Below are positions 4,803 to 37,108 of a stretch of DNA of 49,488 nt, one piece after another. Position 1 is the first letter of the stretch. Each line of letters opens with the position of its first letter. Below the pieces are notes generated by a model, which was not told the origin of the DNA, made no database searches, and saw only the letters and a program-made list of their open reading frames with translations. Made by a program: the position numbers and the translations under genes. Source of the DNA: Lachnospiraceae bacterium (lineage in GTDB: Bacteria; Bacillota; Clostridia; Lachnospirales; Lachnospiraceae); the NCBI GenBank assembly GCA_017458765.1, contig JAFSZZ010000005.1:1-49488 (forward strand), in the 5' to 3' direction.

Positions 4803-4816
4803 GACCGATGATCCTG

Positions 4817-4850: not shown

Positions 4851-4855
4851 TGATA

Positions 4856-6634: not shown

Positions 6635-6653
6635 TATAAAGGATGCACGGGGC

Positions 6654-7700: not shown

Positions 7701-7746
7701 TCGTAAGTGATATACGCCGGGACTAAGCGGGAGGATCCGGATCACC

Positions 7747-9753
7747 ATGAAGAACGGTAATATTTCAGAAAACGGACTGCATACAGAAAATATGGCGGTG
7801 GGCTATGACAGAAGCATACTCATCGACGGGATAGATATTGCCGTAAATCCGGGCGAGATCCTTACGCTGATAGGTCCGAACGGATCGGGAAAATCAACGG
7901 TATTAAGGAGCATCATAGGGCAGCTTAAGCTTATAAAGGGAGCCGTGTTTTTTGGTGATACGGACCGTAAGGATATCGACAGAAACGAGCTGGCGAAAAA
8001 GCTGTCGGTCCTTATGACGGACCGGGTAAAGACCGAGCTCATGACCTGTTTTGATGTGGTCGCGACGGCGAGATATCCGTATACAGGGAGGTTAGGAATA
8101 TTAAGCGATCATGACAGGCAGGCAGTAACGGATGCTCTTGCAACGGTGGGCGCATCGGATCTGGCAGACCGGGATTTTAACAATATCTCGGACGGTCAGA
8201 GACAGAGGATAATGCTTGCAAGATGCATCGCACAGGAGCCCGAGATCATTGTACTTGACGAGCCCCTGTCCTATCTTGATATCAAATACAAGCTTGAATT
8301 CATACGCATCCTAAAGGACCTGTGCAGAGACAGGAATGTCGCGGTCATAATGTCTGTGCATGAGATAGAACTTGCGGGGCAGATATCAGACCGGGTGGTC
8401 TGCATAGGCAGAAACGGTATAGACAGAACAGGCACAAGAGATGAGATATTTAACCCCGATTATATCTGCAGTCTGTTTGACATATCAAAAGAAGATTATC
8501 TTAGATTATATCCGGTATCTTTTGCCGGGGGATATAAAACGGATACAGGAAACGCGGGATATGTTGCGAAGGGCGGAAAGCTGTTAAGAAAGGGTATAAC
8601 CACTGGAACTTGCGCCGCTGCAGCTGCTTATGCGGCAGCATTACAGGTATTTGATGAAAGTGCCGGAGAAACGGTATCCGTACGCACGCCGTCGGGTGAA
8701 ACGGTAAGTGTTCCCGTATTTATTGATGACAGCAGTGTGGATTCTTCATTTTATGTGATAAAAGACAGCGGAGACGATCCGGATGTTACGAACGGGGCCG
8801 GGGTTTATGTGAGTGTCCGAAGGATTACGGATGCAAAGGCAGGGGGTGCGCAGGATCGCAGCTCCGGAATTTTCACGGATGAGGATCATCCGGGGATATG
8901 TCTTGCAGGCGGAGAAGGAGTCGGTACCGTGACAAAGGAAGGGCTTGAGCAGCCCGTGGGTTATCCTGCCATAAATAAGGTGCCCCGTGCCATGATCTTT
9001 AAGGCGGTCGACAGCGTAAGGGCAAAATACGATCCACAGTGTCCTCTCATGGTAACGGTATCGGTTGAAGGAGGAGTCGGGCTTGCCGCAAAGACCTTTA
9101 ATCCGGAACTTGGGATAGAGGGCGGCATTTCGATCCTTGGAACAGGCGGGATACTGGAGCCTATGAGCGATAAGGCTATAGTTGATACGATAGAGACTTC
9201 GATAAAACAGCAGACCGCGACCGGACATAAGGCTCTCCTTGTAACTCCCGGGCAGTACGGACAGGGTTATGTGAAGAATGAGCTTAAGATAGAGACGGAA
9301 GGATCCGTAAAATGCAGCAATTTTATCGGAGAAGCGATAGATCTTGCGGGGGTGTACGGATGCACCAATGTACTGCTCGTTGGTAACCTCGGGAAGCTTG
9401 TAAAGCTTGCGGCGGGGATAATGAATACCCATTCTGCGGTCGCGGATGGAAGGATGGATATAATGTGTGCCCACCTTGCACTTTGCGGCGGCAGCAGGGA
9501 TATGGTGAGCGAGATGTATGAGTGCATAAACACGGATACGGCACTTGATAAGCTTAAGCAGTGGGGACTGTATGAGGATGTCATAAACAGTCTGATCGCT
9601 GCGATAGATAAGAGGATAAAGAAAAGGGCAGGAGACAGGCTTAATGCAGGTGTGATGCTCTTTTCCGAGAAATACGGATATCTTGGAGAAACCTCCGGGG
9701 CGGCACAGGCACTTAAAGCATACATATCGGAGAACGATAAAAAGGAGATATAA
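7747..9753 (+). CDS. cbiD: Fusion: FecE/BtuD-like ABC ATPase - CbiD methyltransferase
   Basis: One 668-residue reading frame joins two activities that are normally separate. Residues about 10-265 are an ABC ATPase with Walker A (GPNGSGKST), signature variant ISDGQRQR and Walker B (IIVLDEPLSYLD). It is the energiser for the FecCD permease just upstream. From about residue 277 the sequence is CbiD, cobalt-precorrin-5B C1-methyltransferase, with KGITTGTCAAAAA, GGEGVGTVTKEGL, AINKVPRAMI and the conserved C-terminal NTHSAVADGRMD. CbiD uses S-adenosylmethionine in the anaerobic ring-contraction branch. No in-frame ATG, GTG or TTG lies in the linker just before the CbiD part, so separate initiation there looks unlikely. 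The ATG at 7747 is the first residue. Confidence 0.9.
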   Translation: MKNGNISENGLHTENMAVGYDRSILIDGIDIAVNPGEILTLIGPNGSGKSTVLRSIIGQLKLIKGAVFFGDTDRKDIDRNELAKKLSVLMTDRVKTELMTCFDVVATARYPYTGRLGILSDHDRQAVTDALATVGASDLADRDFNNISDGQRQRIMLARCIAQEPEIIVLDEPLSYLDIKYKLEFIRILKDLCRDRNVAVIMSVHEIELAGQISDRVVCIGRNGIDRTGTRDEIFNPDYICSLFDISKEDYLRLYPVSFAGGYKTDTGNAGYVAKGGKLLRKGITTGTCAAAAAYAAALQVFDESAGETVSVRTPSGETVSVPVFIDDSSVDSSFYVIKDSGDDPDVTNGAGVYVSVRRITDAKAGGAQDRSSGIFTDEDHPGICLAGGEGVGTVTKEGLEQPVGYPAINKVPRAMIFKAVDSVRAKYDPQCPLMVTVSVEGGVGLAAKTFNPELGIEGGISILGTGGILEPMSDKAIVDTIETSIKQQTATGHKALLVTPGQYGQGYVKNELKIETEGSVKCSNFIGEAIDLAGVYGCTNVLLVGNLGKLVKLAAGIMNTHSAVADGRMDIMCAHLALCGGSRDMVSEMYECINTDTALDKLKQWGLYEDVINSLIAAIDKRIKKRAGDRLNAGVMLFSEKYGYLGETSGAAQALKAYISENDKKEI

Positions 9754-10512
9754 ATGGTACACTTTGTAGGAGCGGGATCCGGGGCGGTCGATCTTATAAC
9801 TGTAAGGGGAGCGGGACTGCTTGAAAAGGCGGACGTGATAATATACGCGGGTTCTTTAGTCAATCCGGGGCTTCTTGAATATGCACATAAGGATTGCAGG
9901 ATATACGACAGTGCATTGATGGATCTTGGAGAGATAATGGATGTGATAAGGGAAAATGCGGATAGGGAAGTGGTGCGTCTGCATACCGGAGATCCTTCGA
10001 TATACGGAGCGATAAAGGAACAGATGGATATACTTGAAAATGAGGGAATACCTTATGATGTATGTCCCGGTGTAAGTTCGATGTCGGGAGCCGCGGCTTC
10101 CCTTAAGGCAGAATATACACTTCCGGGAGTATCCCAGAGCGTGATAATAACCAGGGCAGAGGGAAGGACGGCAGTGCCTGAGGGACAGGGACTCAGTGAA
10201 CTTGCAAAACACGGCTCGACAATGGTCATTTTTTTATCGGCGGGACTTTCAGATAAGGTAAGCGCCGAACTTATGGAAGGCGGATATGCGCAGGACACTC
10301 CCGCTGCTGTAGTGTATAAGGCTACCTGGCCGCAGGAGAAGATAATACGAACGACACTTGGCAGGCTCCCGCAGGCGATGAAGGAGGAAAGAATAGATAA
10401 AACGGCTCTTATCATAGTCGGAGATGTGCTTGATACGGATTATGAACTCTCAAGGCTGTATGATAAGGATTTTTCCACGGGTTTCAGGAACGCCGGGAAT
10501 AACCGGGAATAA
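9754..10512 (+). CDS. cbiF: Cobalt-precorrin-4 C11-methyltransferase
   Basis: CbiF/CobM methylates C11 of cobalt-precorrin-4. The 252-residue protein is a full tetrapyrrole methylase. The N-terminal HFVGAGSGAVDLITVRG is the SAM-site glycine loop. YAGSLVNPGLLEY is the CbiF-specific motif, followed by RLHTGDPSIYGAIKEQMD and CPGVSSMSGAAASL. The gene starts directly after the TAA of the ATPase-CbiD gene (zero spacing), which implies translational coupling. The C-terminal codons and stop lie in a 10-base direct repeat. Confidence 0.95.
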   Translation: MVHFVGAGSGAVDLITVRGAGLLEKADVIIYAGSLVNPGLLEYAHKDCRIYDSALMDLGEIMDVIRENADREVVRLHTGDPSIYGAIKEQMDILENEGIPYDVCPGVSSMSGAAASLKAEYTLPGVSQSVIITRAEGRTAVPEGQGLSELAKHGSTMVIFLSAGLSDKVSAELMEGGYAQDTPAAVVYKATWPQEKIIRTTLGRLPQAMKEERIDKTALIIVGDVLDTDYELSRLYDKDFSTGFRNAGNNRE

Positions 10513-10520
10513 CCCGGGAA
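10493..10520 (+). repeat. 10-base tandem repeat at the cbiF-cbiG junction
   Basis: CCGGGAATAA occurs twice in tandem (10493-10502 and 10503-10512), and a partial third copy CCCGGGAAG follows. The second copy supplies the cbiF stop codon. It appears to be a recent slippage duplication that extended the cbiF C-terminus by a few residues. Confidence 0.75.
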
Positions 10521-10551
10521 GTGAGGACAGGTAAGAGGGAGACATTAAGCT

Positions 10552-11712
10552 TTGAAGACAGCGTTGTTTGCGGTAAGCTGCGCGGGTATGGAAGCGGCAG
10601 TCAGGATACATAAGGGATTATGCGAAGAAGGGTATGAGGATCCGGACATACAGGTTTACATAAAGTTCGGAGATCAAGACGGGAACGCTCTGTCCGGTGA
10701 CGGCATGGATCCTGTTTTACTCGGGAAGGAAGATGACCTTAAGGAGTATGTTAGCCGTGCTTTTGAAGAAGCGGAGGCTCTTATCTTCATATGTGCCTGC
10801 GGTATAGCCGTGCGCCTCATTGCCCCGTTCATAGTACATAAAGCCAAGGATCCCGCGGTGATCGTTATTGATGAAAAGCTTAAGCACTGCATCCCTGTTC
10901 TGTCGGGACATCTGGGAGGTGCAAACGCACTTGCGTTAAGGATCGCATCATTTACCGGAGCGGAAGCGGTAATAACGACGGCATCCGATATAAACGGCAT
11001 GACCGCGGTCGATATGTTTGCAAAAGACAACGGGTTTGCCATAACGGATCTTGAGAAGGCGAAGGAATATACGGCGGCTCTGTTAAGCGGTGAGACACTG
11101 TATGTGATAAACGATGCGAAGGATGTTACGGGAGAAATGATCCTGCCCGAAGGATATGCTTTCACTGGTGAACCGGATGGTATGGATAGTCGCAGCGGAA
11201 TGGATGATCGCAATGGTATGGATGGTTGCAATATTACTGACGATCGCTGTGTTATAAGGATAACTTATAAAAGAAGCGCTCATGCGGATGCTTGCGATCG
11301 TGAGCTTATACTCATACCGCGCTGCCTGAAACTCGGTATAGGCTGCAGGAAGGGAGTATCAAAGGAGAGGATAGAAGAAGCCGCAGTAAAATGCTTTGAG
11401 AAACACGGTCTTTATCTTGATGCTGTAAGTCAGGTGTGCAGCATCGATCTTAAGAAGGACGAGGAAGGTATATCGGAATTCAGCCTGGACAGAGGTATCG
11501 GATTTACGGTTTATCCTGCGGATGAACTCAATGCATTGGAGGGTGACTTTTCCCGGTCGGACTTTGTTAAGGATCATACAGGGGTTGATAATGTGTGCGA
11601 ACGCAGTGCTTTGATGGAGGGCGGAAGGCTTCTGGTCGGCAAGGAAAAATACGACGGCATAACACTTGCAGTGGCTGCTGTGGCAAGGCCTGTTACGGGA
11701 CAGATCTACTGA
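10552..11712 (+). CDS. cbiG: Cobalt-precorrin-5A hydrolase
   Basis: CbiG opens the delta-lactone of cobalt-precorrin-5A and releases acetaldehyde. The protein has 386 residues. The N- and central domains show ICACGIAVRLIAPFI, DPAVIVIDEK and PVLSGHLGGANALA, the family signature, and ITTASDINGMTAVD. The C-terminal domain has LGIGCRKGVSKERIEEA and the conserved SIDLKKDE. The start is TTG at 10552 with AAGAGGGA upstream (10533-10540), and no in-frame ATG lies nearby. Residues 210-227 are an in-frame triplicated hexapeptide (GMDSRS, GMDDRN, GMDGCN) in the linker between domains, not a family feature. Confidence 0.93.
   Translation: MKTALFAVSCAGMEAAVRIHKGLCEEGYEDPDIQVYIKFGDQDGNALSGDGMDPVLLGKEDDLKEYVSRAFEEAEALIFICACGIAVRLIAPFIVHKAKDPAVIVIDEKLKHCIPVLSGHLGGANALALRIASFTGAEAVITTASDINGMTAVDMFAKDNGFAITDLEKAKEYTAALLSGETLYVINDAKDVTGEMILPEGYAFTGEPDGMDSRSGMDDRNGMDGCNITDDRCVIRITYKRSAHADACDRELILIPRCLKLGIGCRKGVSKERIEEAAVKCFEKHGLYLDAVSQVCSIDLKKDEEGISEFSLDRGIGFTVYPADELNALEGDFSRSDFVKDHTGVDNVCERSALMEGGRLLVGKEKYDGITLAVAAVARPVTGQIY
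11179..11232 (+). repeat. In-frame 18-base triplication inside cbiG
   Basis: Three adjacent 18-base units (11179-11196, 11197-11214, 11215-11232), each starting GGWATGGAT, encode GMDxxx. The length is a multiple of three, so the frame is kept. It falls in the variable linker before the CbiG C-terminal domain. Confidence 0.8.
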
Positions 11713-11807
11713 GAGGATGCAGGAAAGATCAGCTGAAAGGATGCGGGGACAGATCAACTGAAAGAATACAGTGTCAGATTTTCTGAAAGTATATGGGGAC
11801 TGAGCGG
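11709..11807 (+). repeat. Four decayed 25-base tandem repeats between cbiG and cbiH
   Basis: Units begin at 11709, 11733, 11758 and 11783, each starting CTGARAG. The first is 24 bases and the others 25. They begin in the last sense codon of cbiG, whose TGA stop lies in unit 1, and end exactly one base before the preferred cbiH ATG at 11808. Units 2 and 4 contain GGGGAC, which in unit 4 could serve as the cbiH ribosome binding site. Confidence 0.75.
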
Positions 11808-12542
11808 ATGGGAATATTGTATGTGGCAGGTATAGGACCGGGAAATGAAGACGGGATGACGGTAAAGGTCAGAAGGATACTTGACGAATGCCCGGTCATA
11901 GCAGGATATAAAACATATATCGAACTTGTAAAGCCCATTCTCGGCGCGGATAAGAAATATGTGGATACCGGGATGCGAATGGAGAAGGAACGGTGCAGGA
12001 TGGCGCTTGAAGAAGCCTGTGGGGACGATGCAAAAGTATGCATGATCTGCAGCGGGGATGCATCGGTTTACGGAATGGCGGGACTGGTGCTTGAGATGGC
12101 GGAAGAATACCCCGAGGTCAGGGTGGAAGTTATCCCGGGTGTGACTGCTGCGTTGTCGGGATCCGCAGTGCTCGGTGCAGCTGTGGGGCATGACTGTGCG
12201 CTTATAAGTCTGAGCGATCTGCTGACGCCGCGGGAGGTGATAGATAAGAGACTCAGTGCCGCCGCGGAGGGGGATTTTGTTATCTGTTTATATAACCCGG
12301 AGAGCAGGACGAGGAAGGGTTATCTTAAGCATGCATGTGAGATCATATTAAAATACAGGGATAAGGATACGGTCTGCGGGGCCGTAAGGAATATAGGGCG
12401 TGACGGCGAGCAGTATGAGCTTATGACTCTTGAGGAACTTACGGGATATGAAGCGGATATGTTCACTACCGTTTTCATCGGCAGCCGCCGAACCGTGGCA
12501 GCAGGCGGAAGGATGGTCACGCCCAGGGGGTATGAACTGTGA
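11808..12542 (+). CDS. cbiH: Cobalt-precorrin-3B C17-methyltransferase
   Basis: CbiH/CobJ methylates C17 and drives ring contraction in the anaerobic pathway. From ATG 11808 the protein has 244 residues and opens MGILYVAGIGPGNEDGMT, the normal N-terminus of the family. An in-frame ATG at 11793 would add five residues but has a poorer ribosome binding site. Other motifs are GYKTYIELV, ICSGDASVYGMAGLV, VIPGVTAALSGSAVLGA, DFVICLYNPESRTR and TTVFIGSRRT. It has no fused ferredoxin-like domain. The stop overlaps the start of the next gene (GTGA). Confidence 0.93.
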   Translation: MGILYVAGIGPGNEDGMTVKVRRILDECPVIAGYKTYIELVKPILGADKKYVDTGMRMEKERCRMALEEACGDDAKVCMICSGDASVYGMAGLVLEMAEEYPEVRVEVIPGVTAALSGSAVLGAAVGHDCALISLSDLLTPREVIDKRLSAAAEGDFVICLYNPESRTRKGYLKHACEIILKYRDKDTVCGAVRNIGRDGEQYELMTLEELTGYEADMFTTVFIGSRRTVAAGGRMVTPRGYEL

Positions 12543-13969
12543 AAGTGCTTTTGTTTGGCGGAACGATAGAAGGAAGGAAGCTTGCGGAAGCCATAGCGGT
12601 TCACCTTCGATCTGAAGAAAGCAAAGATAAGGGAATAGAGTATTGCCATGTATGTGTGGCTACGCAGTACGGGGCATCCCTTCTTCCTCATGATGAGCGG
12701 CTCATAATACATCATGACAGGATGGATGAGGGTGAGATGGAGGAACTTATCGCAGGGACCGGTTTTGATGTGTGCATAGATGCCACCCATCCCTATGCCG
12801 TCATTGTGTCTGAGAATATAAAAATGGCCTGTGAAAACCGCGGGATTAAGCTGTATCGTCTGCTCAGAGAGGAAGAGTCCGGTAAATTGGACAGTATGAT
12901 GAACGGACAGAGAGTCACATGTTTTGACAACGTGCACGATGCCGTGGATCATCTTAAGAATACAAAGGGCAATATCCTTACGACTACGGGATCCAAGGAA
13001 CTTAAGGAATTCACACGGATAGAGGATTACGGGACAAGAGTGTATGCCCGTGTGCTGCCTGTGAGCGATGTGTTAAAGACCTGTGAGGAACTTAAGTTCC
13101 CGGCAGGGAATCTGTACTGCATGCAGGGGCCGTTCAGTACCGAGATGAATATTGCGATGATAAATGCTTCTCATGCAGGATACCTTGTTACAAAATCTTC
13201 CGGAAGTGCGGGAGGTTTTGATGAAAAGTACGAAGCTGCCATGCAGACCGGGGCTGAACTTGTCGTGATCGGAAGACCAAAGGAGATCCGGGACCGTGTA
13301 TACAGTTACGAGGAGATACTTGATATCCTGGGGCTTAAGGATGTAAGAGGTACCCGCAGGGCTTACGTTATCAGCGCGGGCTGTGGGAACATAGGACAGC
13401 TGACCGTGGATGCAAAAAGAGCGATAGAGGAAAGCGAATGCCTGATAGGAGCCGGCCGTATCCTGGATGGACTCGGTGTTATGTCGACCTCAAAGAAGAC
13501 TTTTTCAGGTTACAGACCTGATGAGATAAGCGGATTTCTGGCCGATAATATGCCTGAAACCGTGGCTTTGCTGTATTCGGGAGACATAGGTTTTTATTCG
13601 GGGGCATCAGGGATAGCGGACGTGCTTAAGGATTATGAGATCATACGTGTTCCGGGCATTTCATCCGCAACGTACTTCTGCGACAGGCTTGGGATACCAT
13701 GGCAGGACGTAAGATTTTTAAGCTGCCACGGGCGTCCGGTGGATATAAGTAAAGAGGTTGGGGAGGGAGCAAAGCTTCTTATCCTCATGGGTGAAACGGA
13801 AGATGCCGGCAGGATATGTACTGAATTATGTAAACTAAATTTTGAAAAGGCCCGTGTATGTATCGGAGAGAGACTGTCTTATCCGGAGGAGAAGATAACC
13901 GAAGGAACAGCGGAAGAACTTAAATGTGTGACTATCGATCCGCTGTCGGTGATGTTGATATTATGTTAA
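12539..13969 (+). CDS. cbiJ: Fusion: cobalt-precorrin-6A reductase (CbiJ) - cobalt-precorrin-7 C5-methyltransferase (CbiE)
   Basis: A 476-residue bifunctional protein. Residues 1-262 are CbiJ (LLFGGTIEGRKLAEA, DATHPYA, LTTTGSKELKEF and MQGPFSTEMN), the pyridine-nucleotide-dependent reductase of the corrin ring. Residues about 275-470 are CbiE, a tetrapyrrole methylase (VISAGCGNIGQLT, LIGAGR, YSGDIGFYSGAS and VPGISSATYFCDRLGIPW). CbiE is more usually fused to the decarboxylating methyltransferase CbiT (CobL/CbiET). Here the CbiT part is absent and CbiJ takes its place. The start is GTG 12539, overlapping the cbiH stop. The 3' end overlaps the preferred cbiA start by seven bases. Confidence 0.92.
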   Translation: MKVLLFGGTIEGRKLAEAIAVHLRSEESKDKGIEYCHVCVATQYGASLLPHDERLIIHHDRMDEGEMEELIAGTGFDVCIDATHPYAVIVSENIKMACENRGIKLYRLLREEESGKLDSMMNGQRVTCFDNVHDAVDHLKNTKGNILTTTGSKELKEFTRIEDYGTRVYARVLPVSDVLKTCEELKFPAGNLYCMQGPFSTEMNIAMINASHAGYLVTKSSGSAGGFDEKYEAAMQTGAELVVIGRPKEIRDRVYSYEEILDILGLKDVRGTRRAYVISAGCGNIGQLTVDAKRAIEESECLIGAGRILDGLGVMSTSKKTFSGYRPDEISGFLADNMPETVALLYSGDIGFYSGASGIADVLKDYEIIRVPGISSATYFCDRLGIPWQDVRFLSCHGRPVDISKEVGEGAKLLILMGETEDAGRICTELCKLNFEKARVCIGERLSYPEEKITEGTAEELKCVTIDPLSVMLILC

Positions 13970-15363
13970 CCAATAAAGAAGCGAAGATAAACAGGATACT
14001 GATAGCGGCACCAAAGAGCGGGAGCGGGAAGACGATGATAACCTGCGCTCTTATACGTGCGCTTAAAATACGGGGACTTAAGGTGGGTGCCCGCAAATGC
14101 GGTCCGGACTACATCGATCCGATGTTCCACAGGAAGGCGCTTGACGTTGAGAGTGGCAATCTGGATCCGTATTTTACGGATGAGGAGATGCTTAAATATC
14201 TTCTTGTATCAGGCTGCCGTGATAATGATATGACCGTGATCGAAGGCGTCATGGGATATTACGACGGCATTGGCGGAACGACTGTTGAAGCAAGTACCTA
14301 TGATGTTGCGGTAAAGACCGGCACACCGGCCATCCTTGTCGTAGATGCGAAGGGTGTCAGTGTAACTCTGTCGGCTCTCATTAAGGGAATGCTTGATTAC
14401 AGGAAGGATAACAATATTGCCGGAGTGATCCTTAACAGGACATCCGAAGGCTTTTATGAGAGGATTGCAAAGGTTATCCGCGAAGAATGCGGTATCGAAG
14501 TCTTCGGTTTTATGCCGGAACTTCGTGACCTTGATATAGGATCGAGACATCTTGGACTGATGCAGCCTGATGAAGTGGAAGGGCTTGATGTAAAGCTTGA
14601 TATGCTGGCAGGACAGATAGAGAGAACTGTCGACATTGACGGGATAATACGGACAGCAAAAGGGGCACCGGAACTTAGCGAAGTAAGGCCTGCAGAGCTT
14701 GATGGATTGCCTGGTTCGGTTGACGCACTTAAGGTAAGAGAAGCAAAGCCGGTGATAGCGGTCGCAAGGGATGAGGCTTTCGGATTCTTTTATGATGATA
14801 ATATAAGGCTGCTTATGGAACTGGGGGCTGAGCCGGTATATTTTTCTCCCCTTCATGATGCGGCCCTTCCGGAAGGGACAGACGGTATTATACTGTATGG
14901 CGGATATCCGGAAGAACATGCCGCAGAACTTGAAGGAAACGTATCAATGAAAAGATCGATCCTTGAAGCATACAAAAAGGGTATCCCGATAATAGCGGAA
15001 TGCGGCGGCTTTATGTATCTTCAGAAGGAACTTGAAACAAAGGACGGTCATATATATGAAATGTGCGGAGTGATACCGGGAAGAGCCTTTTTTGCAAACA
15101 GGCTCGTGCGCTTCGGGTATATGGAAGCAAAGGCCCAAAAGCCAGGTCTGTACGGTGATAAGGGACTTGTATTCAGAGGCCATGAATTCCACTACTGGGA
15201 CTGCAGCATAAACGGGAACGATTTTAAGGCCGTAAAGCCGGGGAGCGTGGTTTCTTACGAGTGTATGATACATGAAAGCGCGATGGCGGCAGGTTTTGCA
15301 CATATATATGCTTACGGGAATCCTAAGATGTATCTTGAATTCCTTAAAAAGGCGGTGGGATGA
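13963..15363 (+). CDS. cbiA: Cobyrinate a,c-diamide synthase
   Basis: CbiA amidates the a and c side chains of cob(II)yrinate using glutamine and ATP. I prefer ATG 13963 (466 residues) to the in-frame ATG 13924, because the family N-terminus begins a few residues before the P-loop and 13963 overlaps the upstream stop in the usual coupled manner. The P-loop is SGSGKT (to T24). CGPDYIDPMFH and DGIGGTT are typical of the synthetase domain. The C-terminal class I glutaminase-like domain has LYGGYPEEHA, ECGGFMYLQ with nucleophile C347, and a late FRGHEFHYW. The length is normal. Confidence 0.95.
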   Translation: MLTNKEAKINRILIAAPKSGSGKTMITCALIRALKIRGLKVGARKCGPDYIDPMFHRKALDVESGNLDPYFTDEEMLKYLLVSGCRDNDMTVIEGVMGYYDGIGGTTVEASTYDVAVKTGTPAILVVDAKGVSVTLSALIKGMLDYRKDNNIAGVILNRTSEGFYERIAKVIREECGIEVFGFMPELRDLDIGSRHLGLMQPDEVEGLDVKLDMLAGQIERTVDIDGIIRTAKGAPELSEVRPAELDGLPGSVDALKVREAKPVIAVARDEAFGFFYDDNIRLLMELGAEPVYFSPLHDAALPEGTDGIILYGGYPEEHAAELEGNVSMKRSILEAYKKGIPIIAECGGFMYLQKELETKDGHIYEMCGVIPGRAFFANRLVRFGYMEAKAQKPGLYGDKGLVFRGHEFHYWDCSINGNDFKAVKPGSVVSYECMIHESAMAAGFAHIYAYGNPKMYLEFLKKAVG

Positions 15364-27658: not shown

Positions 27659-27671
27659 ATGGGTGGGAAAA

Positions 27672-30062
27672 ATGTTTACATGGAATTTTCAGTACATTTC
27701 TAAGGCAAGACTGGCCGAAACATTCAGCCAGCTTATGCTCAATCCTCAAAAGGGAGATATCCTGATAAGGATACACACTGCAATACATACCGAAAAGGAG
27801 GCCGTTGATCTGGCACGGTTCATAAAGAGCCTGGTGCCGGCAGCAGGCATCATGGGTATAAGTACACCGGCGCCGGTAGGCAGCGGAAGCAGCAGGGTCA
27901 TGTACAATCAGTGCTCCATATCGGTGAGCCAGATGTCACAGGGACATGTCAGGACATCAATGCTTCTGCCTGATATTTCGGGCGAGGGCATAAAGGAGGC
28001 TTTTCCGAATGATGATCTGAGATTGCTGCTTGCTTTCTTTGCGGGAAGCTTCAGGGAAGCCGAAAGGTTTGCGGGCATTGTCAATGATGAACTGCCCGGA
28101 GTATGCCTGGCAGGCGGACTGGCCGACATTTCCGTTAATGCATATCATAAGGATTCAAAAGAGGGATTTGTTTTTAATGAAGCGGGGTGTTCAAACCACG
28201 GAATACTGGTAGCTGCGTTTGACGGCAAGAGTTTTTGCGTAACGGGCGGATATGCGACAGGTATCCATGAGGTTGATATCAAGGATCATGACAGGGATAC
28301 CTTTGCGGAAGAACTGAAGAAACTTAAAGAACTGCCTGATGTCCTTCATCTTACGGATGACGGCAAGCGGCTGTTAAACGTTTCGGATATTGATGATATC
28401 GGGGACTGTAAGATGGCCTTTGTTCATGATGAAGGTATCATATCGGATGACAGAAAGCTGTTTCACATGGTTGAAGGATTCTCAATGACTGAGACGATCC
28501 TTTGCTATATCTGTTCATCGAGGGCTAAAATGTATCCCGGATGTACCGAATGGGAATTGTCTGTATATGAGAATTCCAATATATGCGGCTGCGTTATGAA
28601 CGGTGTGTTTGCTGTGGAAAACGGAAAGAATCTGCTGACAGACTGGGCATTTTCGCTGACAGTGGCGGGTGAGGAACACAGGATGCAGAGGTTCAATCCC
28701 TATGTTTTCTCATATACGGAGGCACTTTCCGAGGATAATAACAGGCTTTTGAGCCATCTCGTACATATAGTGAGAGAATGTCAGGAGAAGGGACAGGATA
28801 TACCTGAGAGCGTGCATGGCTTTGTGCGTGAATGCGAGAATAAGCTGTTAAGGACAGCCGAAGACGGACTGCCGAATGAAGCGGCCCTCATCCTGGATAT
28901 GAAGATAAAGGGTTATGACAGGGTATGCATGATAAATGTCCTTGATGCAAGCGGTATAACTGCGGTTTTCCCGGAAGGTATGATCAGGATGACCAAGAAT
29001 ACCTATATCGGTAGATGCCGCTCTTATGCACACAGGAAGAATTATCATACATACAAATTGGATAAATGGATGGTCGCGGTTGCGGCTCCCGCATATCTCG
29101 TGAAACTCTCCGACTTTATAAGTGATATGGAAGAACTTCAGCGTTCGCTGTTCAGAACGGTTGAGGGATCTGCAGCCATAGTTCCGACATTCTGTATACT
29201 GGATGACTGCGACCCGGAATACCTGAGGGATAATTACAATGCCGCATGCAATCGCATGAAACAGAAGAATCTCCAGTTTTACGTATATGATTCCGATCTG
29301 GACAGACCGGATGTGGAGAGCATTCGCGAGCGATACCGCATGGTCGATGTCATCAACAGTGCGATCGAGGGTGACAGAGTGTTCCCTTATTTCCAGGGTA
29401 TCTATGATAACAGGAAGGGGAAGATAACTCATTATGAAGCTTTGATGAGGATAGCCGATGAGACGGGAAGGATATATTATCCTGCCGAGTTTCTTGATGT
29501 GGCTCATTCATACGGGCTTTTGTATGACACCCTGTCCATGACCATGATCCGCAAGGTTTTCGACAGGTTCAGGGATTATAAGGATAAGGAAGTAAGCATC
29601 AATCTGAGCATGCGTGACATAAAGAACAGGGAACTGGTCGAGTTCATCTGCAGCTTCCTTGCGACAGCTTCCTATCCCGGTAATTTTGTGTTTGAGATAC
29701 TGGAAAATGAGGACGTGGATGATTACGAATATGTCCTCTCATTTGTGGACAGGATACATAGTCTCGGAGGATGTATATCCATTGACGATTTCGGCAGCGG
29801 ATATTCGAACCTTATGCATGTAATAAATATACATGCAGACTATATCAAGATCGACGGATCCATCGTGCGAAGATGCAGCGAGGACAAGGAATCGGAACAT
29901 GTTATCGCGATGATATCGGGCTGGAGAGCACTCAGCAACAGACAAATAGGTATTGTTGCGGAGTTTGTTGAGAATGATGATATCCAGAAAATGATAGAGA
30001 AGTATGGTATAGATTTTTCGCAGGGATATCTGTTTGCAAAACCTGCTCCGGATATAGAGTAA
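27672..30062 (+). CDS. FIST sensor domain - EAL c-di-GMP phosphodiesterase
   Basis: A cytoplasmic protein of 796 residues from ATG 27672 (799 from GTG 27663). The N-terminal FIST_N and FIST_C domains (about 1-370) are predicted small-ligand sensors, possibly for amino acids. ISTPAPVGSGSS and GVCLAGGLADI fit that family. A linker domain follows, and the C-terminal EAL domain spans about 565-796. Catalytic residues look intact: EALMR (E589), INLSMRD, FEILENED, IDDFGSGYSN (D705, D706), KIDGSI, AEFVEN and QGYLFAKP. It should hydrolyse cyclic di-GMP to pGpG. No GGDEF domain is present. It is the first gene of a four-gene signalling operon, with 15 bases to the next gene. Confidence 0.88.
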   Translation: MFTWNFQYISKARLAETFSQLMLNPQKGDILIRIHTAIHTEKEAVDLARFIKSLVPAAGIMGISTPAPVGSGSSRVMYNQCSISVSQMSQGHVRTSMLLPDISGEGIKEAFPNDDLRLLLAFFAGSFREAERFAGIVNDELPGVCLAGGLADISVNAYHKDSKEGFVFNEAGCSNHGILVAAFDGKSFCVTGGYATGIHEVDIKDHDRDTFAEELKKLKELPDVLHLTDDGKRLLNVSDIDDIGDCKMAFVHDEGIISDDRKLFHMVEGFSMTETILCYICSSRAKMYPGCTEWELSVYENSNICGCVMNGVFAVENGKNLLTDWAFSLTVAGEEHRMQRFNPYVFSYTEALSEDNNRLLSHLVHIVRECQEKGQDIPESVHGFVRECENKLLRTAEDGLPNEAALILDMKIKGYDRVCMINVLDASGITAVFPEGMIRMTKNTYIGRCRSYAHRKNYHTYKLDKWMVAVAAPAYLVKLSDFISDMEELQRSLFRTVEGSAAIVPTFCILDDCDPEYLRDNYNAACNRMKQKNLQFYVYDSDLDRPDVESIRERYRMVDVINSAIEGDRVFPYFQGIYDNRKGKITHYEALMRIADETGRIYYPAEFLDVAHSYGLLYDTLSMTMIRKVFDRFRDYKDKEVSINLSMRDIKNRELVEFICSFLATASYPGNFVFEILENEDVDDYEYVLSFVDRIHSLGGCISIDDFGSGYSNLMHVINIHADYIKIDGSIVRRCSEDKESEHVIAMISGWRALSNRQIGIVAEFVENDDIQKMIEKYGIDFSQGYLFAKPAPDIE

Positions 30063-30077: not shown

Positions 30078-31841
30078 ATGCTTCCTGATCATATGCGAAG
30101 GGAAGGTAAGACCCTTCGGAATGACAAGTGCATAATAGGGCTGGTCATAGAGGACATCGGATCGACATATGCAAGGGATCTTATCAGGGATACGATGGAT
30201 TCAATCCCCGAGGGTGACGCGATACGGCTTGTGGTACTGGCAGGAAAATATGACGAGCCCGGGATAGATCTTCACGAATACAGGCAGGTGTATAATCTGA
30301 TACATCATCTGGAGGAGATATGCGAATTTGACGGATTCATAGTATCCTGCGCACCGTTTGCGGATATTATGAAACGTGCGGCTTCCGATGAAAACGGCAG
30401 ACATTTCCTTGATATACCCAAGGTGTATGTGGGTGATGGTCCCCGAGATGGGACCATAGTCAAGTGCGATAATGAGATCGGGATACGCTCCGGCATTGAT
30501 TTCCTCATCAATATAAACGGCTGCAGAAAGTTATGCATGCTTGGCGGAAGAGATGATCTGTATGACGCGATAAAGAGGAAAGAGGTGTTCATTCAGGGTC
30601 TTGCCGATAACGGTATCGAGTTTAAGGAACAGTATTTTGTAGGTACCGATATGTCGGAGAACTGTATTGCGGAAGCGGAGCATCTGCTCGATCTTAATCC
30701 GGATATGGATGCTGTGTTCTGCGTGAATGATTCATCTGCGGTCGGTATGTATGCGGCGATGAAAAAGAGGGGGATCGTTCCGGGAAGAGATATCCAGGTC
30801 TTCGGATTTGATAATACACGTGAAGCCGGTACGATGGAACCTCCGCTGTCTTCCGTGGGAACCGAAGGTGCAACTGCCGGCAGCAAGACGGTCGAGCTCC
30901 TTTTAAGAAAGCTTGCCGGGGAGCAGACAGAGACAGTCATACTTCCGACAAGGCTGTACGGAAGAGAATCACTGAAATATACAGCATACGATTACACAAT
31001 GAAGGATCTTGAACTGCCTGATACGGCAGTGCTTGACCGAATGTTTGACGACTGCTTCTACAGGTACAGGAATGAAAAATACTCGCGTGAAAATGTTGAC
31101 TTAAGACGTCTTTTCCATGCCTTCATGACGAGACTGCTGAGTGCGGCCCAGAGGCGGTATATGAGTGAAGGAGAATTTCAGGAGGCGCTGAGACTTGTAG
31201 ATATCTTTATCGAGAACGGAGCACTCGAATACACAGACATACGTAAGCTTATGAAGAGTATCAGCCGTCTTCAGGATGCGATCAATAAGGAAAAGGGTTC
31301 GATATCCGTCAATTCAATGATAAACAGGGCATTTCTGCGTATTAAGGATAAGGTGATCGAGGAACTCGCAAAGCAGAGGGAACTCGACCAGATCAAGAGA
31401 AACGACAGCAGGGAGAAACTTGAAGAATTCTGCCTTCGGGCAACCGATCATTTGGGGAGTTCCGGGGATGGTTTTGACAGGATAATACGGAACCTTGGCG
31501 AGCTGGGATTAAAGGATGCCGCCTTCTTCGGGTTTGAGAAGCCGGTCGTATATGAGCATGACAAGACGGTCGATTTTCCTGAGAATATCAGGCTTTATTG
31601 TGTGGTCAAGGAAAGCATGTTCTACGTGATATCCGAGAACAGGCAGAGCGTTTCGGTAAAGACTATGCTTTCAAGAGCGGAGCTTGCCGGTATGAATTCC
31701 GGGATACTTCTGCTGCCTGTATTGTGCGGTTCCTGTTTGTACGGGTTTCTGGCGTACGGTATCACCGAGGATATATTTGACAGGGGTCTGATAATAGCAA
31801 CAGAGCTTGGCAGGGCATTATACTTAAACGATCTGTTATAG
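30078..31841 (+). CDS. LacI-like periplasmic-binding-fold sensor without DNA-binding domain
   Basis: A 587-residue protein with no signal peptide, helix-turn-helix or membrane helix. Residues about 17-310 are a type I periplasmic-binding fold as in LacI/GalR effector domains. Supporting motifs are IGLVIEDIGSTYARDLI, FDGFIVSC, the paired KLCMLGGRDDLYDAIKR and DAVFCVNDSSAVGMYAAMKKRG, and VFGFDNTREAGTMEPPLSSV. A helical, partly coiled-coil region follows (about 330-450). The last 140 residues look like a GAF-type domain (DAAFFGFEKPVVYEHD to LLPVLCGSCLYGFLAYG). In clostridia such modules are often joined to GGDEF or kinase domains. Here the output is probably the kinase encoded next. Ligand unknown, perhaps a sugar. 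Confidence 0.75.
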   Translation: MLPDHMRREGKTLRNDKCIIGLVIEDIGSTYARDLIRDTMDSIPEGDAIRLVVLAGKYDEPGIDLHEYRQVYNLIHHLEEICEFDGFIVSCAPFADIMKRAASDENGRHFLDIPKVYVGDGPRDGTIVKCDNEIGIRSGIDFLININGCRKLCMLGGRDDLYDAIKRKEVFIQGLADNGIEFKEQYFVGTDMSENCIAEAEHLLDLNPDMDAVFCVNDSSAVGMYAAMKKRGIVPGRDIQVFGFDNTREAGTMEPPLSSVGTEGATAGSKTVELLLRKLAGEQTETVILPTRLYGRESLKYTAYDYTMKDLELPDTAVLDRMFDDCFYRYRNEKYSRENVDLRRLFHAFMTRLLSAAQRRYMSEGEFQEALRLVDIFIENGALEYTDIRKLMKSISRLQDAINKEKGSISVNSMINRAFLRIKDKVIEELAKQRELDQIKRNDSREKLEEFCLRATDHLGSSGDGFDRIIRNLGELGLKDAAFFGFEKPVVYEHDKTVDFPENIRLYCVVKESMFYVISENRQSVSVKTMLSRAELAGMNSGILLLPVLCGSCLYGFLAYGITEDIFDRGLIIATELGRALYLNDLL

Positions 31842-31856: not shown

Positions 31857-33956
31857 ATGGATGGATTTGGAGGCAGACAGCCGAACTTTTCGGGAGAACT
31901 CGAGAACGATATACTGAACGTCCATCTGGTAATGGTACTGGTCGCTACTCTGGGTGGTCTCGGACTTATTGCGGAGGGTATCCTTCTTAAGTGGGAGTTC
32001 TGGGTACTTCCGATAATACTTTTTGGTATCGCCTTCATCTGGATAGTTTACATAACACGACATTATACTGATGATATAAGAGAGGGGATATATGTCGCGT
32101 TTATAATGTTTGCCGGAATATTCCACGGTGTTCATCAGACCAGCATGTTTGATATTTCGTTGATGACAGTGCTGATCATGATAACATTTGTCGTGACCAA
32201 CAGGAAAAGATATCAGAACTATGCCCTTATAGAATTTTTCGCCCTTATATGTGCGCAGTGGTATCTGACAGCACAGAGCGGCGGTATCAAGATAGATGTT
32301 CTTACCGTATCCAGGATAATCTTACACATATCAACAGTTCTTATTGCATACAGCATCTGCAGGAATGTAGTGATCCGCGGTCATAAGAGTAACGAGATAA
32401 TAAAGAGTTATGTTTCGGAGGTCAAAAGGACTAACGAGGCCATGGAGGATTTTCTTGCAAACATATCACATGAATTCAGAACTCCGATAAATGTCGTTAC
32501 CGGTATGTCCTCGATAATCACGAAGGAAAACAAAAACGACAGGATAACTGCGATTAACGATGCCGGTTTGAGGCTGGCAGATCAGGTAGAGGACATACTT
32601 GATTATAACGAGATAATCAGTGACCGGCTGATCATTACGGATGAAGGATACATGATCACATCGGTGGTAAATGATGTGGTAGCGAAGTTCCGCCCTGTTG
32701 CGGCACAGAAAAAGCTGGAATTTATCATGGATCTGGATCCGAGGATGCCGCGGGTCATGAACGGCGATGTATCCAGAATAAAGAAGATACTCTTTCATCT
32801 TATCTCGAATGCTGTTAAGTTTACCGAGCAGGGCGGACTGTATGTGAAGATATCGACAGCGGAAAGAAAGTACGGAGCAAATCTGGATATAGAGATCACC
32901 GATACAGGAAAGGGAATGTCGCGTGCGGATATAGAACAGCTGTCGGACACGCTGTATCAGGCGGATAAGGGAAGAGACAGAAGTACGGGCGGTATAGGGC
33001 TGGGGCTTACGATAGTATATGGCTTTACACATGCAATGGGTGGATTTGTCCGGATAGAGAGTGAGGAAGGAAGGGGAACCACAGTGCTTGTGAGCATCCC
33101 CCAGACGGTGAACGACAGCATGCCGTGTCTGACTGTATCTCAGGGAACACAAAGATGCGTGGTTACATATATAAGACCGGAAAAATACAGGATACCTCAG
33201 ATACGTGATCACTATCATAAAATGATAGAGAATATGTCAAAGGGACTTAAGATCCCGGTTCACAGTGCAGGGACACCGGGTAATTTAAGGAACATGTGCG
33301 AGCATATGAATGTCACGCATATTTTTACCGGACAGTATGAATATGAGGCCGATAAGGAATATCTTACGGATCTGAGCCGTCGTATCTGCGTTGTTGTAAA
33401 TGTGGAAAACGGCTATGAGAAGGTCAGGAGGGGAAACATCCTGTATATCCTGAATCCCATATACGCAGTTCCTGCGGTGAGCATCCTGAATGCAGGTGAA
33501 GCCTATATGGATCTTCAGTTTGAGGACAGAGAGGAAAGGCCGGTCTTTACGGGTACCCGTGCTCTCATAGTGGATGATGAGATGATGAATCTCGTGGTGG
33601 CTTCCGGACTGTTCAAAGAATATGAGATGGTAACGGAAACAGCCGGAAGCGGAGCGGAAGCCATTGAAAAATACAGGGATGGTGAGTACGATATTATATT
33701 TATGGACCATATGATGCCCGGAATGGATGGCATTGAGGCCATGAAAAGGTTAAAAGAGATGGGACGGAAGAAAGGACGTAAGACTGTGATCGTCGCGCTT
33801 ACCGCAAATGCTGTGAGCGGGGCAAAGGAGATGTTTATGTCGGAAGGTTTTGACGGATTTATAGCAAAGCCGATAGAAACAGGTGAATTTGAGAGAGTCA
33901 TGCGCCGTGTACTTCCGCCCGAACTTATAAAGATCAGGGGAGGTGGAGATTCATGA
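31857..33956 (+). CDS. Membrane hybrid histidine kinase with receiver domain
   Basis: A 699-residue kinase. Residues about 20-170 contain five to six membrane helices with no large extracellular loop. HisKA has NISHEFRTPINV (phospho-acceptor H205). The ATPase domain has HLISNAVKFTEQG, ITDTGKGMS and GGIGLGLTIVYGF. The segment about 425-560 looks like a divergent inactive receiver (CVVTYIRPEKYR to ILYILNPIYAVPAV). It precedes the true receiver (ALIVDDEMMNLVV, MDHMMPGMDG with phospho-acceptor D617, LTANAVSG and KPIE). No DNA-binding output is present, so phosphate must pass elsewhere, plausibly to the Hpt domain of the next protein. It overlaps the next gene by four bases. Confidence 0.9.
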   Translation: MDGFGGRQPNFSGELENDILNVHLVMVLVATLGGLGLIAEGILLKWEFWVLPIILFGIAFIWIVYITRHYTDDIREGIYVAFIMFAGIFHGVHQTSMFDISLMTVLIMITFVVTNRKRYQNYALIEFFALICAQWYLTAQSGGIKIDVLTVSRIILHISTVLIAYSICRNVVIRGHKSNEIIKSYVSEVKRTNEAMEDFLANISHEFRTPINVVTGMSSIITKENKNDRITAINDAGLRLADQVEDILDYNEIISDRLIITDEGYMITSVVNDVVAKFRPVAAQKKLEFIMDLDPRMPRVMNGDVSRIKKILFHLISNAVKFTEQGGLYVKISTAERKYGANLDIEITDTGKGMSRADIEQLSDTLYQADKGRDRSTGGIGLGLTIVYGFTHAMGGFVRIESEEGRGTTVLVSIPQTVNDSMPCLTVSQGTQRCVVTYIRPEKYRIPQIRDHYHKMIENMSKGLKIPVHSAGTPGNLRNMCEHMNVTHIFTGQYEYEADKEYLTDLSRRICVVVNVENGYEKVRRGNILYILNPIYAVPAVSILNAGEAYMDLQFEDREERPVFTGTRALIVDDEMMNLVVASGLFKEYEMVTETAGSGAEAIEKYRDGEYDIIFMDHMMPGMDGIEAMKRLKEMGRKKGRKTVIVALTANAVSGAKEMFMSEGFDGFIAKPIETGEFERVMRRVLPPELIKIRGGGDS

Positions 33957-36900
33957 GCCTTCCGAAGAAATTCATTTCATTTTTAAAAGATCCGAGCGTT
34001 GATTTCCAGACAAGGATATTCACGCTGCTTACAACTATTGGTGTAACAGGTGTATTTACGGCATTTTTGGGTGATATTTTTCTGGGCGAGAGCATTATAG
34101 AGATAGTGGTCCTGGGATTATCGGTCCTTATCCTGCCGCTCATAACCTTTATTTCCATATCGCTTGATGCATTAAAGACGGGAACCGTTCTTATCTGCCT
34201 CGGGATAGTGGGAATAATCCTGCCGGTAAGCTTTTTCTATGGCGGAGGTCCGTATGGCGGCGCGATAATCTGGATGACTTTCTGTTATCTGTATATCGGT
34301 CTTGTGCTGACCGGTGCATGGCGTGTCATCATGCTTGTTTTGATGACGGTATTTATAGTGGCAGAATATCTGGCGGCATATTACAGACCGGATCATGTTT
34401 TTGAACATTCGCCCAGGATGTTCTTTATCGATTCGGCGATCTCGGTGATCCTCCTCGGATTTATAACCTGTATCGTTGTATGGTTCCAGAATCAGCTGTT
34501 CATGGATGAGAACAGGCGCGCCAGGGAAGAGGCTGAGAAGGTTGAAGAACTTAACAGGGCGCAGAACAGATTTTTCTCCAATATGAGTCATGAGATAAGG
34601 ACTCCCATCAATACGATCCTTGGACTGAATGAGGTGACACTGCGAAGAGGGGATCTGCCGGATGATGTTATATCGGATGCCAGGAGCATCGAGGGAGCGG
34701 GAAGTATGCTCCTTGCGATGGTCAATGATATCCTTGACATGAGCAGGCTTGAATCCGGGAGCATGGATATAGTTCCGGTAAGCTACAGTATAAATGATAT
34801 GCTTTCGGAGTTATGGAATATGATCCGGCCGAGAGCGCAGGCCAAAGGCCTTACGCTGAAAGTTGATGTGGATCCGTCCACGCCATCCGAACTGTTTGGG
34901 GATGAAGTGCGGATCAAACAGATACTGATAAACATTCTTACGAATGCGATAAAGTATACCAAAGAGGGTTCTGTCCGGCTCTATATAGAGAGTGAGCAGA
35001 CAGGCGACAATGAAGTTATGTTAACCTATGCCATAACGGATACCGGAATGGGTATAAAGAAAGAGGCCATGCCGCATCTGTTTGACGCATTCAAAAGGGT
35101 GGATGAGGAAAAGAACAGAAATATAGAGGGAACGGGTCTTGGGCTGTCGATAGTAAAGCAGCTTGTGGATCTTATGAACGGTGAGGTAATCGTAAACAGT
35201 GTTTATATGCAGGGATCCACTTTTGTGGTAAAGCTCCGCCAGGACATAGTAAATCCGGATCCTGTAGGCACCCTGAAGATAGGCGGACAGCCGGAGAGTG
35301 AGACCCACGGGGAATATAAGCAGAGCTTTGAAGCACCGGATGCAAGTATCCTTATCGTAGATGACAACGCGCTTAACATAAGGGTGGAAAGAAAACTGCT
35401 GGAGGCAACCAAAGTGCATTCCGATACGGCGCTGAGCGGTACCGAGGCATTGGGCAAGACTCTGAGAACGCAGTATGATGTCATCCTGATGGATCATCTG
35501 ATGCCGGAAATGGATGGTATAGAATGCCTTGCAAAGATAAGGGAGCAGGCGGGAGGACTCAATAAGGATACTCCGGTAATAGCACTTACGGCAAATGCGG
35601 GTTCCGAGAATCAGGAACTTTACAGGGCAAGCGGTTTTGATGATTACCTGTGTAAACCGGTATCGGGCAGCAAACTGGAAGAGATGCTTATGAAGCATAT
35701 CAAAAAGGAGAAGATCATAGTAACAGGATCTTCAGCGCCGGCTCCGGATCAATACGAGGCGGAAACGAATGATTTTACAAGAAAGAGTGCCCTGTCGATA
35801 ACCACCAGCAGCCTCTGCGATCTTCCGTCTGCGGCCATAAGATCCCTTGGTATAGGAATAATACCCATAAGCATAAAAACGCAGAGGGGTGTCTTCTGGG
35901 ACGGAGTAGAGACTGTTGCGGATGAAGTGGTCAGATACGTTGAGGAAACAGGTGAGTACGCAGGGACCGAGCCGCCGACGGTTGAGGAATTCGAGAACTT
36001 TTTTGCCGAGAAACTTGCCGAAACAAGACATATCATACATATAACGATATCTTCGGATTCGTCGGATGAATATGACAGGGCCCTGCAGGCAGCCAGTGCG
36101 TTCGGAAATGTCACGATCTTTGATTCCGGTCTGGTATCAAGCGCCATCGGTCTTGTTGTCCTCGCAGCCTGCCGAATGTCACAGCAGAATTATAATGTGC
36201 AGACAATAATAAGTGAACTTGAAAAATTCAAAAAGAGGATAGATGCGACCTTCATTATTGACAATACCGAATTCATGTGCAGATCCGGGAGGATGTCGGA
36301 GAGTCTTAATATGATCGCCGGTGCACTTTTACTCCATCCGATGATCAGACTGAAAGACGGAAAACTCAAGGTCTCGAAGCTATGGTTCGGACGCAGGGAG
36401 AAGGCGCGCAGGAATTATATCGCATATATGCTCAGGAACAAAAAGGATATCGATCCTGACATATTATTCATAACATATGTAGGACTCAGCGAATATGAAC
36501 TTGGCGCGATAGAGAAGGAGATAAGGCGGAGAGCGGATTTTAAGCGCATAATATTCCAAAAGGCTTCGGCCGCTGTTTCGGTCAATTCGGGGTCGGGTAC
36601 TTTTGGCGTACTGTATATGAAAAAGGCAGACAAAGCGTTTGACATTGCTTCGCTGATACCGGATGAGAACACCATTTTGGCGGAACAGTCCGATATACAG
36701 ACTGTGGAGGAAGATACAGCAGATCATGCGGAAGCATCACAGCGTATGATCATGGAGAATATCCTGGACGGGCTGAAAGGCATAGACGTTAAGAAAGGAA
36801 TGGAAAACTGCGGCTCGCTTGAAGCGTATAAGCCTGTACTTGACATATATTACACTAATATAGATGAGGAAGCGGACGAACTGATCGGTCTGTTTAACAA

Positions 36901-37108
36901 ACAGGACTGGAACGGATATATGGTGAAGGTACATGCGGTCAAGGGCACATCAAGACTGATCGGAGCGATGGAACTTGCGAACAGGGCACAGGAACTTGAA
37001 GATGCGGCAAGGAACAGGGACGAACGTTTCATTGTGCAGAATCACGAAGGGTTCATTATGGAATATCGCAGCTTTAAGAATGTACTCCGCCCGGTATGCA
37101 ATGGGTAG
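33953..37108 (+). CDS. Hybrid histidine kinase - receiver - DegV - Hpt protein
   Basis: A 1051-residue protein with an unusual domain string. Membrane helices occupy about 20-185. HisKA shows NMSHEIRTPINT (H213), and the ATPase domain NILTNAIKYTKEG, DTGMGIK and GTGLGLSIVKQL. The receiver has ILIVDDNALNIRV and LMDHLMPEMDG (D514). Then about 610-885 is a complete DegV-type fatty-acid-binding fold: SITTSSLCDLPSAAIRSLGI, IPISIKTQRGVFWDG, PPTVEEF, ITISSDSSDEYDRALQAA, IFDSGLVSSAIGL and RSGRMSES. The usual SSxLSGTY loop is altered to SSDSSDEY. The last 120 residues are an Hpt domain (KVHAVKGTSRLIGAMELA, H994). A lipid-responsive phosphorelay is inferred. A terminator follows at 37181. Confidence 0.88.
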   Translation: MSLPKKFISFLKDPSVDFQTRIFTLLTTIGVTGVFTAFLGDIFLGESIIEIVVLGLSVLILPLITFISISLDALKTGTVLICLGIVGIILPVSFFYGGGPYGGAIIWMTFCYLYIGLVLTGAWRVIMLVLMTVFIVAEYLAAYYRPDHVFEHSPRMFFIDSAISVILLGFITCIVVWFQNQLFMDENRRAREEAEKVEELNRAQNRFFSNMSHEIRTPINTILGLNEVTLRRGDLPDDVISDARSIEGAGSMLLAMVNDILDMSRLESGSMDIVPVSYSINDMLSELWNMIRPRAQAKGLTLKVDVDPSTPSELFGDEVRIKQILINILTNAIKYTKEGSVRLYIESEQTGDNEVMLTYAITDTGMGIKKEAMPHLFDAFKRVDEEKNRNIEGTGLGLSIVKQLVDLMNGEVIVNSVYMQGSTFVVKLRQDIVNPDPVGTLKIGGQPESETHGEYKQSFEAPDASILIVDDNALNIRVERKLLEATKVHSDTALSGTEALGKTLRTQYDVILMDHLMPEMDGIECLAKIREQAGGLNKDTPVIALTANAGSENQELYRASGFDDYLCKPVSGSKLEEMLMKHIKKEKIIVTGSSAPAPDQYEAETNDFTRKSALSITTSSLCDLPSAAIRSLGIGIIPISIKTQRGVFWDGVETVADEVVRYVEETGEYAGTEPPTVEEFENFFAEKLAETRHIIHITISSDSSDEYDRALQAASAFGNVTIFDSGLVSSAIGLVVLAACRMSQQNYNVQTIISELEKFKKRIDATFIIDNTEFMCRSGRMSESLNMIAGALLLHPMIRLKDGKLKVSKLWFGRREKARRNYIAYMLRNKKDIDPDILFITYVGLSEYELGAIEKEIRRRADFKRIIFQKASAAVSVNSGSGTFGVLYMKKADKAFDIASLIPDENTILAEQSDIQTVEEDTADHAEASQRMIMENILDGLKGIDVKKGMENCGSLEAYKPVLDIYYTNIDEEADELIGLFNKQDWNGYMVKVHAVKGTSRLIGAMELANRAQELEDAARNRDERFIVQNHEGFIMEYRSFKNVLRPVCNG

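Follow-up and report, generated by a model that had tools for sequence, protein, structure and literature searches.

The DNA analysed here, called the window, is a stretch of 49,488 nucleotides from a Lachnospiraceae bacterium (contig JAFSZZ010000005.1 of assembly GCA_017458765.1). Four closely spaced genes on its forward strand probably form a single operon, as judged from the distances between them. The most upstream (27663..30062) encodes a FIST sensor domain fused to EAL, a probable c-di-GMP phosphodiesterase. It is followed after 15 nt by a gene for a 587-aa protein with a LacI-type periplasmic-binding-like domain (30078..31841), in which no DNA-binding domain was recognised and the C-terminal ~290 aa have no Pfam match. 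Another 15 nt downstream lies the gene of a hybrid kinase, HK1 (31857..33956), consisting of a membrane segment, HisKA, HATPase, an unassigned stretch that may be read as a pseudo-receiver, and a receiver, with no Hpt. The HK1 stop and the start of the fourth gene overlap as ATGA. A scan for promoters and terminators stayed near the shuffled level and was uninformative.

The fourth gene (33953..37108, forward strand) is an uninterrupted open reading frame with an ATG start and encodes DegV-HK2 (HK2 below), a 1051-aa hybrid histidine kinase with an embedded DegV domain and a C-terminal Hpt. A simple hydropathy scan finds five hydrophobic stretches in the membrane segment of HK2 (residues 1–190, 33953..34522), which matches no Pfam family and probably lacks an extracytoplasmic domain because its loops are short. 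Behind it, Pfam recognised HisKA with the phospho-acceptor His213 (residues 203–269, 34559..34759, E 2.6e-15), HATPase_c (residues 316–430, 34898..35242, E 3.8e-26), a receiver (Response_reg) with Asp514 (residues 466–579, 35348..35689, E 2.8e-21), DegV (residues 615–890, 35795..36622, E 2.1e-46, profile positions 3–279 of 280) and Hpt with His994 (residues 962–1023, 36836..37021, E 1.2e-7). The initial annotation had placed a complete DegV fold between the receiver and the Hpt, and both the domain order and the near-full profile coverage bear this out. The DegV domain also scored 177.6 bits against NCBIfam TIGR00762, for which the cut-off is 99.7, and the DegV profile A3 matched structure 1pzx over chain residues 3–285 of 289 (E 1.7e-35). 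The phosphorelay residues, including H213, D514 and H994, were intact at all six sites in 81 of 81 rows. HK2 carries the HisKA His, receiver Asp and Hpt His of a tripartite hybrid histidine kinase, and phosphotransfer is predicted.

Relatives of HK2 were collected by a scan of one genome per species across 84,980 species, from which the best 80 of 579 candidates were kept, so that the sample is biased to full-length matches of the TM-HK-REC-DegV-Hpt architecture. These 80 match over nearly the full length with 43–99% identity over the best segment. The architecture search suggested at the outset recovered the same domain order in all of these best 80 of 579, as read with profiles built from the relatives themselves. 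Most are labelled Lachnospiraceae or Butyrivibrio and many come from ruminants; the others are labelled Oscillospiraceae (L010, L013, L037), Clostridiaceae (L064), Clostridia (L046) or only "bacterium" (L022). HK1 lies directly upstream in 77 of the best 80, and in the remaining three the fusion begins within ~215 bases of the contig start, where the position of HK1 is cut off. Of 397 genomes sampled from the same GTDB family, 67 contain an open frame of at least 724 aa with a close DegV match, a count of frame length in which kinase domains were checked at the subset of loci taken on for study. The statement that DegV proteins are normally stand-alone is true for most, and these long frames qualify it. 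No fusion outside the family was found at E <= 1e-55 among 146 genomes of the order and 398 of the phylum, samples that contain some genomes of the family itself; the matches from other families lay in frames of 284–397 aa. With no more than 6 candidates per genome scored in the phylum search, weaker fusions could be missed. Judged from these genomes, one family of gut and rumen bacteria, Lachnospiraceae, has taken DegV into a two-kinase signalling cassette. The first reading of the locus was right on the embedding, the completeness and the altered loop of the DegV domain, but overlooked both the partner HK1 and how widely the cassette occurs in the family.

The placement of Hpt in the cassette follows an either-or pattern. 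Where the DegV protein carries an Hpt, HK1 has none (84 of 84 cases, made up of 77 relatives together with L113, L161, L162, L166, L156, L164 and L177). Where the DegV protein is of the type TM-HK-REC-DegV without Hpt, the upstream gene carries one in 35 of 39 cases; among the 35, only part of HK1 is visible in L111, L117, L163 and L176, and the upstream kinase of L160 is only distantly HK1-like. The exceptions are L183, in whose 818-aa HK1 no Hpt was detected, the second tandem copy of L160, and L110 and L174, both at a contig edge. All four free-standing DegVs behind HK1 have the Hpt upstream. Expressed as 39/42 versus 0/84, the complementarity has a Fisher p of ~2e-29 with kinship among loci ignored, and a recount of Hpt placement agreed with it. 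This pattern is the strongest evidence that both kinases act in one relay. The phosphorelay with a DegV component that had been proposed earlier is well supported by the conserved gene pairing and the complementary Hpt placement. A comparison of 88 Hpt domains of DegV proteins found 86 closer to the Hpt of other kinases in these loci, one closer to that of HK1 and one to neither. A transfer of the Hpt from HK1 to HK2 is not supported by this count of 86 versus 1. As the Hpt of the fused type resembles those of other kinases more than that of HK1, it was probably captured from another kinase, the Hpt of HK1 being lost afterwards.

The contexts of 58 genome loci, picked by hand from the hit lists, reveal a DegV domain shuffled around a constant HK1. 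Free-standing DegV lies behind an HK1 with Hpt at four loci (L150, L151, L153, L154). At L152, HK2 and DegV occupy separate frames. A DegV-Hpt protein without HK2 is present at L156 and L164, and DegV forms the N-terminus of a kinase at L159, L165 and L177. Loci L149, L155, L157 and L158 are truncated by contig ends. At L125 (3933–6560) and L126 (3281–5875) an HK1-like kinase without receiver is fused to DegV and has no HK1 beside it; its phospho-acceptor region is read as degenerate, with the His motif apparently missing, which would make these two proteins pseudo-kinases. A tandem pair of DegV-HK2 genes occurs at L160 (3778–9167, coding orientation). In two sets of upstream kinases, the phospho-acceptor His was present in 73/74 and 47/48, with gaps otherwise, and the receiver Asp in 74/74 and 48/48, the set of 48 including L152 and L160, where the upstream gene is HK2. 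The genome from which the window comes has three HK-linked DegVs, namely that of the window locus, one on contig C96 that lacks Hpt and an incomplete one on C59, in addition to two stand-alone DegVs in tandem. Both Hpt placements are found in this one genome, C96 carrying HK1-Hpt followed by HK2-DegV.

In a maximum-likelihood tree of 87 DegV domains, the HK-linked domains form one lineage apart from the canonical ones (support 100/99). The free-standing HK-linked DegVs branch first (L152 excepted), followed by the Hpt-less fusions. Nested within the latter are two groups, one of the Hpt-bearing type (98/84) and one that joins the N-terminal and DegV-Hpt types (98/95). Support for the basal order of the HK-linked DegVs is weak (80/52), and rooting on the canonical side is an assumption. 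The series from a separate DegV gene to a fused protein, together with the either-or Hpt, provides a natural experiment on the rebuilding of a phosphorelay.

DegV proteins are fatty-acid carriers for lipid synthesis. A study of FakB1 (PMC8892158) describes a carboxylate network of Thr62, Ser95, Ser171 and His270, a latch and catalytic residue, Arg173, that is required for phosphorylation, and a docking residue for FakA and the membrane, Arg205. The HK2 equivalents are T672 (T62), S704 (S95), S778 (S171), R780 (R173), F812 (R205) and N878 (H270). The window DegV has kept Thr62, Ser95, Ser171 and Arg173 and lacks His270 and Arg205; the head-group network of FakB1 is incomplete in it, with T672, S704 and S778 present and N878 in place of His270. 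Residues were counted after the removal of five near-duplicates (95% identity) and of the artefact fragments A_L005x and A_L087x, which earlier residue counts and an earlier DegV tree still contain. The final rows comprised 106 fused DegVs (82 Hpt-bearing, 22 Hpt-less and 2 pseudo-kinase) and 34 separate DegVs. Position 270 is Asn in 99 of the 106 fused rows (76/82 Hpt-bearing, 21/22 Hpt-less, 2/2 pseudo-kinase) and His in 32 of the 34 separate ones, the two with Asn being genes behind HK1. Arg205 is present in 2/106 fused rows, where the replacements are mostly hydrophobic, versus 30/34 separate ones. One of the separate DegVs that lack Arg205 stands alone in the genome that the window comes from, so this loss is not diagnostic by itself. 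Arg173 is kept in 15/82 Hpt-bearing, 12/22 Hpt-less and 33/34 separate DegVs, and Ser95 in 78/82, 13/22 and 33/34, respectively.

The loop SSDSSDEY, which had been reported in place of the usual head-group loop, is indeed read at HK2 residues 700–707. The change is real, but the Ser of the carboxylate network (Ser95 in FakB1) is retained as Ser704 and it is the pair after this Ser that differs. An acid (D/E) occupies FakB1 position 97 in 81/82 Hpt-bearing rows and in none of the other groups, so the loop change is a family trait. Tunnel positions 121, 162, 191 and 271 (FakB1 numbering) have similar residues in HK-linked and canonical DegVs, and at position 158 the HK-linked ones mostly carry Cys in place of Ala. 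These residue identities are suggestive of an acyl tunnel that has been retained in the HK-linked DegVs. A simple FakB function was rejected on the loss of Arg205 and the change of His270 to Asn, and the same two changes, Phe812 and Asn878 in HK2, weaken the acyl-phosphate role that had been considered in the initial annotation. FakB-type work appears unlikely for the HK-linked DegVs, and a dedicated sensor role appears likely. FakA and stand-alone DegVs are also encoded in the genome and may take care of the ordinary FakB function. Fatty-acid responsiveness of the putative sensor is plausible because the acyl tunnel appears to be kept. A plain fatty-acid carboxylate would fit poorly as the ligand, given the acid beside the head-group Ser and the scarcity of Arg173 in the Hpt-bearing type.

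Genes with GGDEF, EAL or HD-GYP domains were found within 3.5 kb of 34/80 relatives and of 25/58 cassettes, and 62 of 63 such genes are on the same strand as the cassette. Over half of the cassettes lack a c-di-GMP gene within the visible flanks. The control consisted of 18 stand-alone, canonical DegV loci of the same family with ~4 kb on each side where the contig allows, hand-picked before their neighbours were seen (20 were taken, minus two that were found behind HK1). c-di-GMP genes are present at three of these 18 (L188, L189, L202), which exceeds the estimate from own-genome density (EAL excluded). The comparison of cassettes with canonical loci gave a Fisher p of ~0.03, and that of directly adjacent c-di-GMP genes (36/138 versus 1/18) a Fisher p of ~0.04, with kinship ignored in both as in all the other counts; the enrichment near the cassettes is modest. 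An HK1-like hybrid kinase was found at none of the 18 canonical loci within the ~4 kb flanks; L191 carries a kinase–regulator pair of the ordinary kind, and L190 and L195 have a receiver protein. In a weaker control of 13 distinct canonical loci, most of them from other families and all with flanks of at most 1.5 kb, no kinase was found and one receiver protein was present (L104). At L188, c-di-GMP enzymes (5161–6891 and 1147–3177, coding orientation) flank the canonical stand-alone DegV on both sides.

Nine of ten annotated neighbours that were chosen for having a receiver combine REC with GGDEF, EAL or HD domains, and on contig C96 a REC-GGDEF-REC-HD protein overlaps HK1. BLAST grouping placed a gene for a ~255-aa REC protein downstream of the cassette in 21/80 relatives and similar genes upstream in 9. 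This protein (L007:8599–9390, L166:6275–7057) has one recognised receiver, in its C-terminal half, and is a candidate relay partner. The same type of grouping, with one member of each group annotated, placed a sodium:alanine symporter cluster, which is no lipid gene, near 24/80 relatives and a DUF6976 neighbour in 8/80. Directly upstream of HK1, L011 encodes (222–3398, forward strand) a hybrid kinase with N-terminal ferredoxin and iron-hydrogenase-like domains, possibly a redox or hydrogen sensor. The N-terminal part of this kinase is shared, at 79–84% identity, by seven other upstream genes (L018, L030, L031, L041, L044, L055, L079).

The HK2-type DegV is related to the FakB/DegV family (PF02645, TIGR00762) by a full-length domain match, by its tunnel positions and usually by Ser95. 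It differs in being fused to or paired with hybrid kinases, in having its own branch of the tree, and in the residue changes at positions 270, 205 and, for most of the Hpt-bearing type, 173. HK2 shares the HisKA, receiver and Hpt residues of the hybrid sensor kinases BarA, TorS and EvgS, which are named here from NCBIfam matches far below the cut-off, but it has DegV between REC and Hpt, a conserved pairing with a second hybrid kinase and an alternating Hpt. RetS is the partner kinase of GacS in Pseudomonas aeruginosa. HK1 and HK2 resemble GacS and RetS as two sensor kinases thought to act together, but their genes are adjacent and share one Hpt, and their interaction is predicted from genomes only. 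GacS of Pseudomonas aeruginosa is reported to belong to an interacting sensor-kinase pair (PMC5992135). None of the matches listed in the literature searched, whose reach left out most subscription papers, described a fusion between DegV and a histidine kinase.

We give about an even chance to the proposal that DegV is the cytosolic acyl-chain sensor of a two-kinase phosphorelay cassette in which HK1 and HK2 share one Hpt. The two proteins would be neighbouring membrane hybrid kinases with the single Hpt on one or the other, and DegV would be fixed to a membrane-bound kinase as a cytosolic sensor. Its acyl tunnel would take up a ligand with an acyl chain, either from the cytosol or from the inner leaflet, and with both the head-group site and the site that docks to FakA and the membrane rebuilt, the ligand may be read rather than phosphorylated. 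Occupancy by the ligand would shift the arrangement of receiver and Hpt and hence the flow of phosphate to REC partners, which in some cassettes may be enzymes of c-di-GMP turnover. The tunnel is the one feature that points to an acyl ligand, and the changes at the head-group site may indicate a different head group. The sodium:alanine symporter cluster near many relatives and the LacI-type binding domain in the window operon, neither of them a lipid gene, count against the acyl-sensor reading. A more far-reaching version is offered tentatively, as a possibility with the odds somewhat against it: a so far undescribed class of lipid-sensing phosphorelay, with DegV as an acyl-binding subunit that first stood beside a hybrid kinase and was later fused to its partner, and with cytosolic or inner-leaflet acyl species setting an output, partly through c-di-GMP, in rumen and gut Lachnospiraceae. 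If this is true, the DegVs that joined phosphorelays would make up a new class of sensory domain, and common gut bacteria would have a direct route from acyl-chain status to signalling.

A serious rival, if on balance an unlikely one, is that DegV is a docking or dimerisation module with lipid as at most a structural filler, joining HK1 and HK2 or recruiting a response regulator, perhaps in the manner of the C-terminal DegV-type domain of FakA. The drift of the head-group residues favours such a role, as does a DegV that is C-terminal, internal, N-terminal or free-standing, yet stays beside HK1; FakA itself ends in a DegV domain (PMC10146087). The conserved tunnel-lining positions and the specific replacement of His by Asn are what would be expected of a working pocket and speak against this rival. 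It is distinctly improbable, in our estimate, that the fatty-acid idea is wrong in detail and DegV binds another ligand with a neutral or cationic head, such as an acyl amide, an amino lipid, an alcohol or a non-lipid. Asn at position 270, the acid at position 97 and the frequent loss of Arg173 in the Hpt-bearing type would suit such a ligand, but Thr/Ser62 and Ser95 are mostly kept and the window protein also keeps Ser171 and Arg173.

The location of DegV between the receiver and the Hpt in the window protein also invites the idea that the phosphorelay is a fatty-acid kinase, with phosphate moving in either direction between the receiver or Hpt and an acyl group bound by DegV. In the Fak system, acyl groups are phosphorylated while bound to FakB (PMC9136124). 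This reading is very improbable, because Arg173, which is essential for the Fak reaction, is mostly lost in the Hpt-bearing type, Arg205 is lost, and in other cassettes DegV lies elsewhere than between the receiver and the Hpt. A chance fusion or an assembly artefact without function has a negligible probability, with nothing found in its favour, and was ruled out, since the same architecture recurs in the 80 relatives (the best 80 of 579) down to 43% identity.

Cobalamin genes at 3135–15360 of the window include one for a CbiK protein with an unassigned N-terminus, one in which CbiD is fused behind an ABC ATPase (7747–9753) and one for a CbiA-type amidotransferase (13924–15363). Downstream of HK2, the segment 37465–38979 encodes a predicted protein with long, acidic, Lys- and Ala-rich repeats and a C-terminal LysM.
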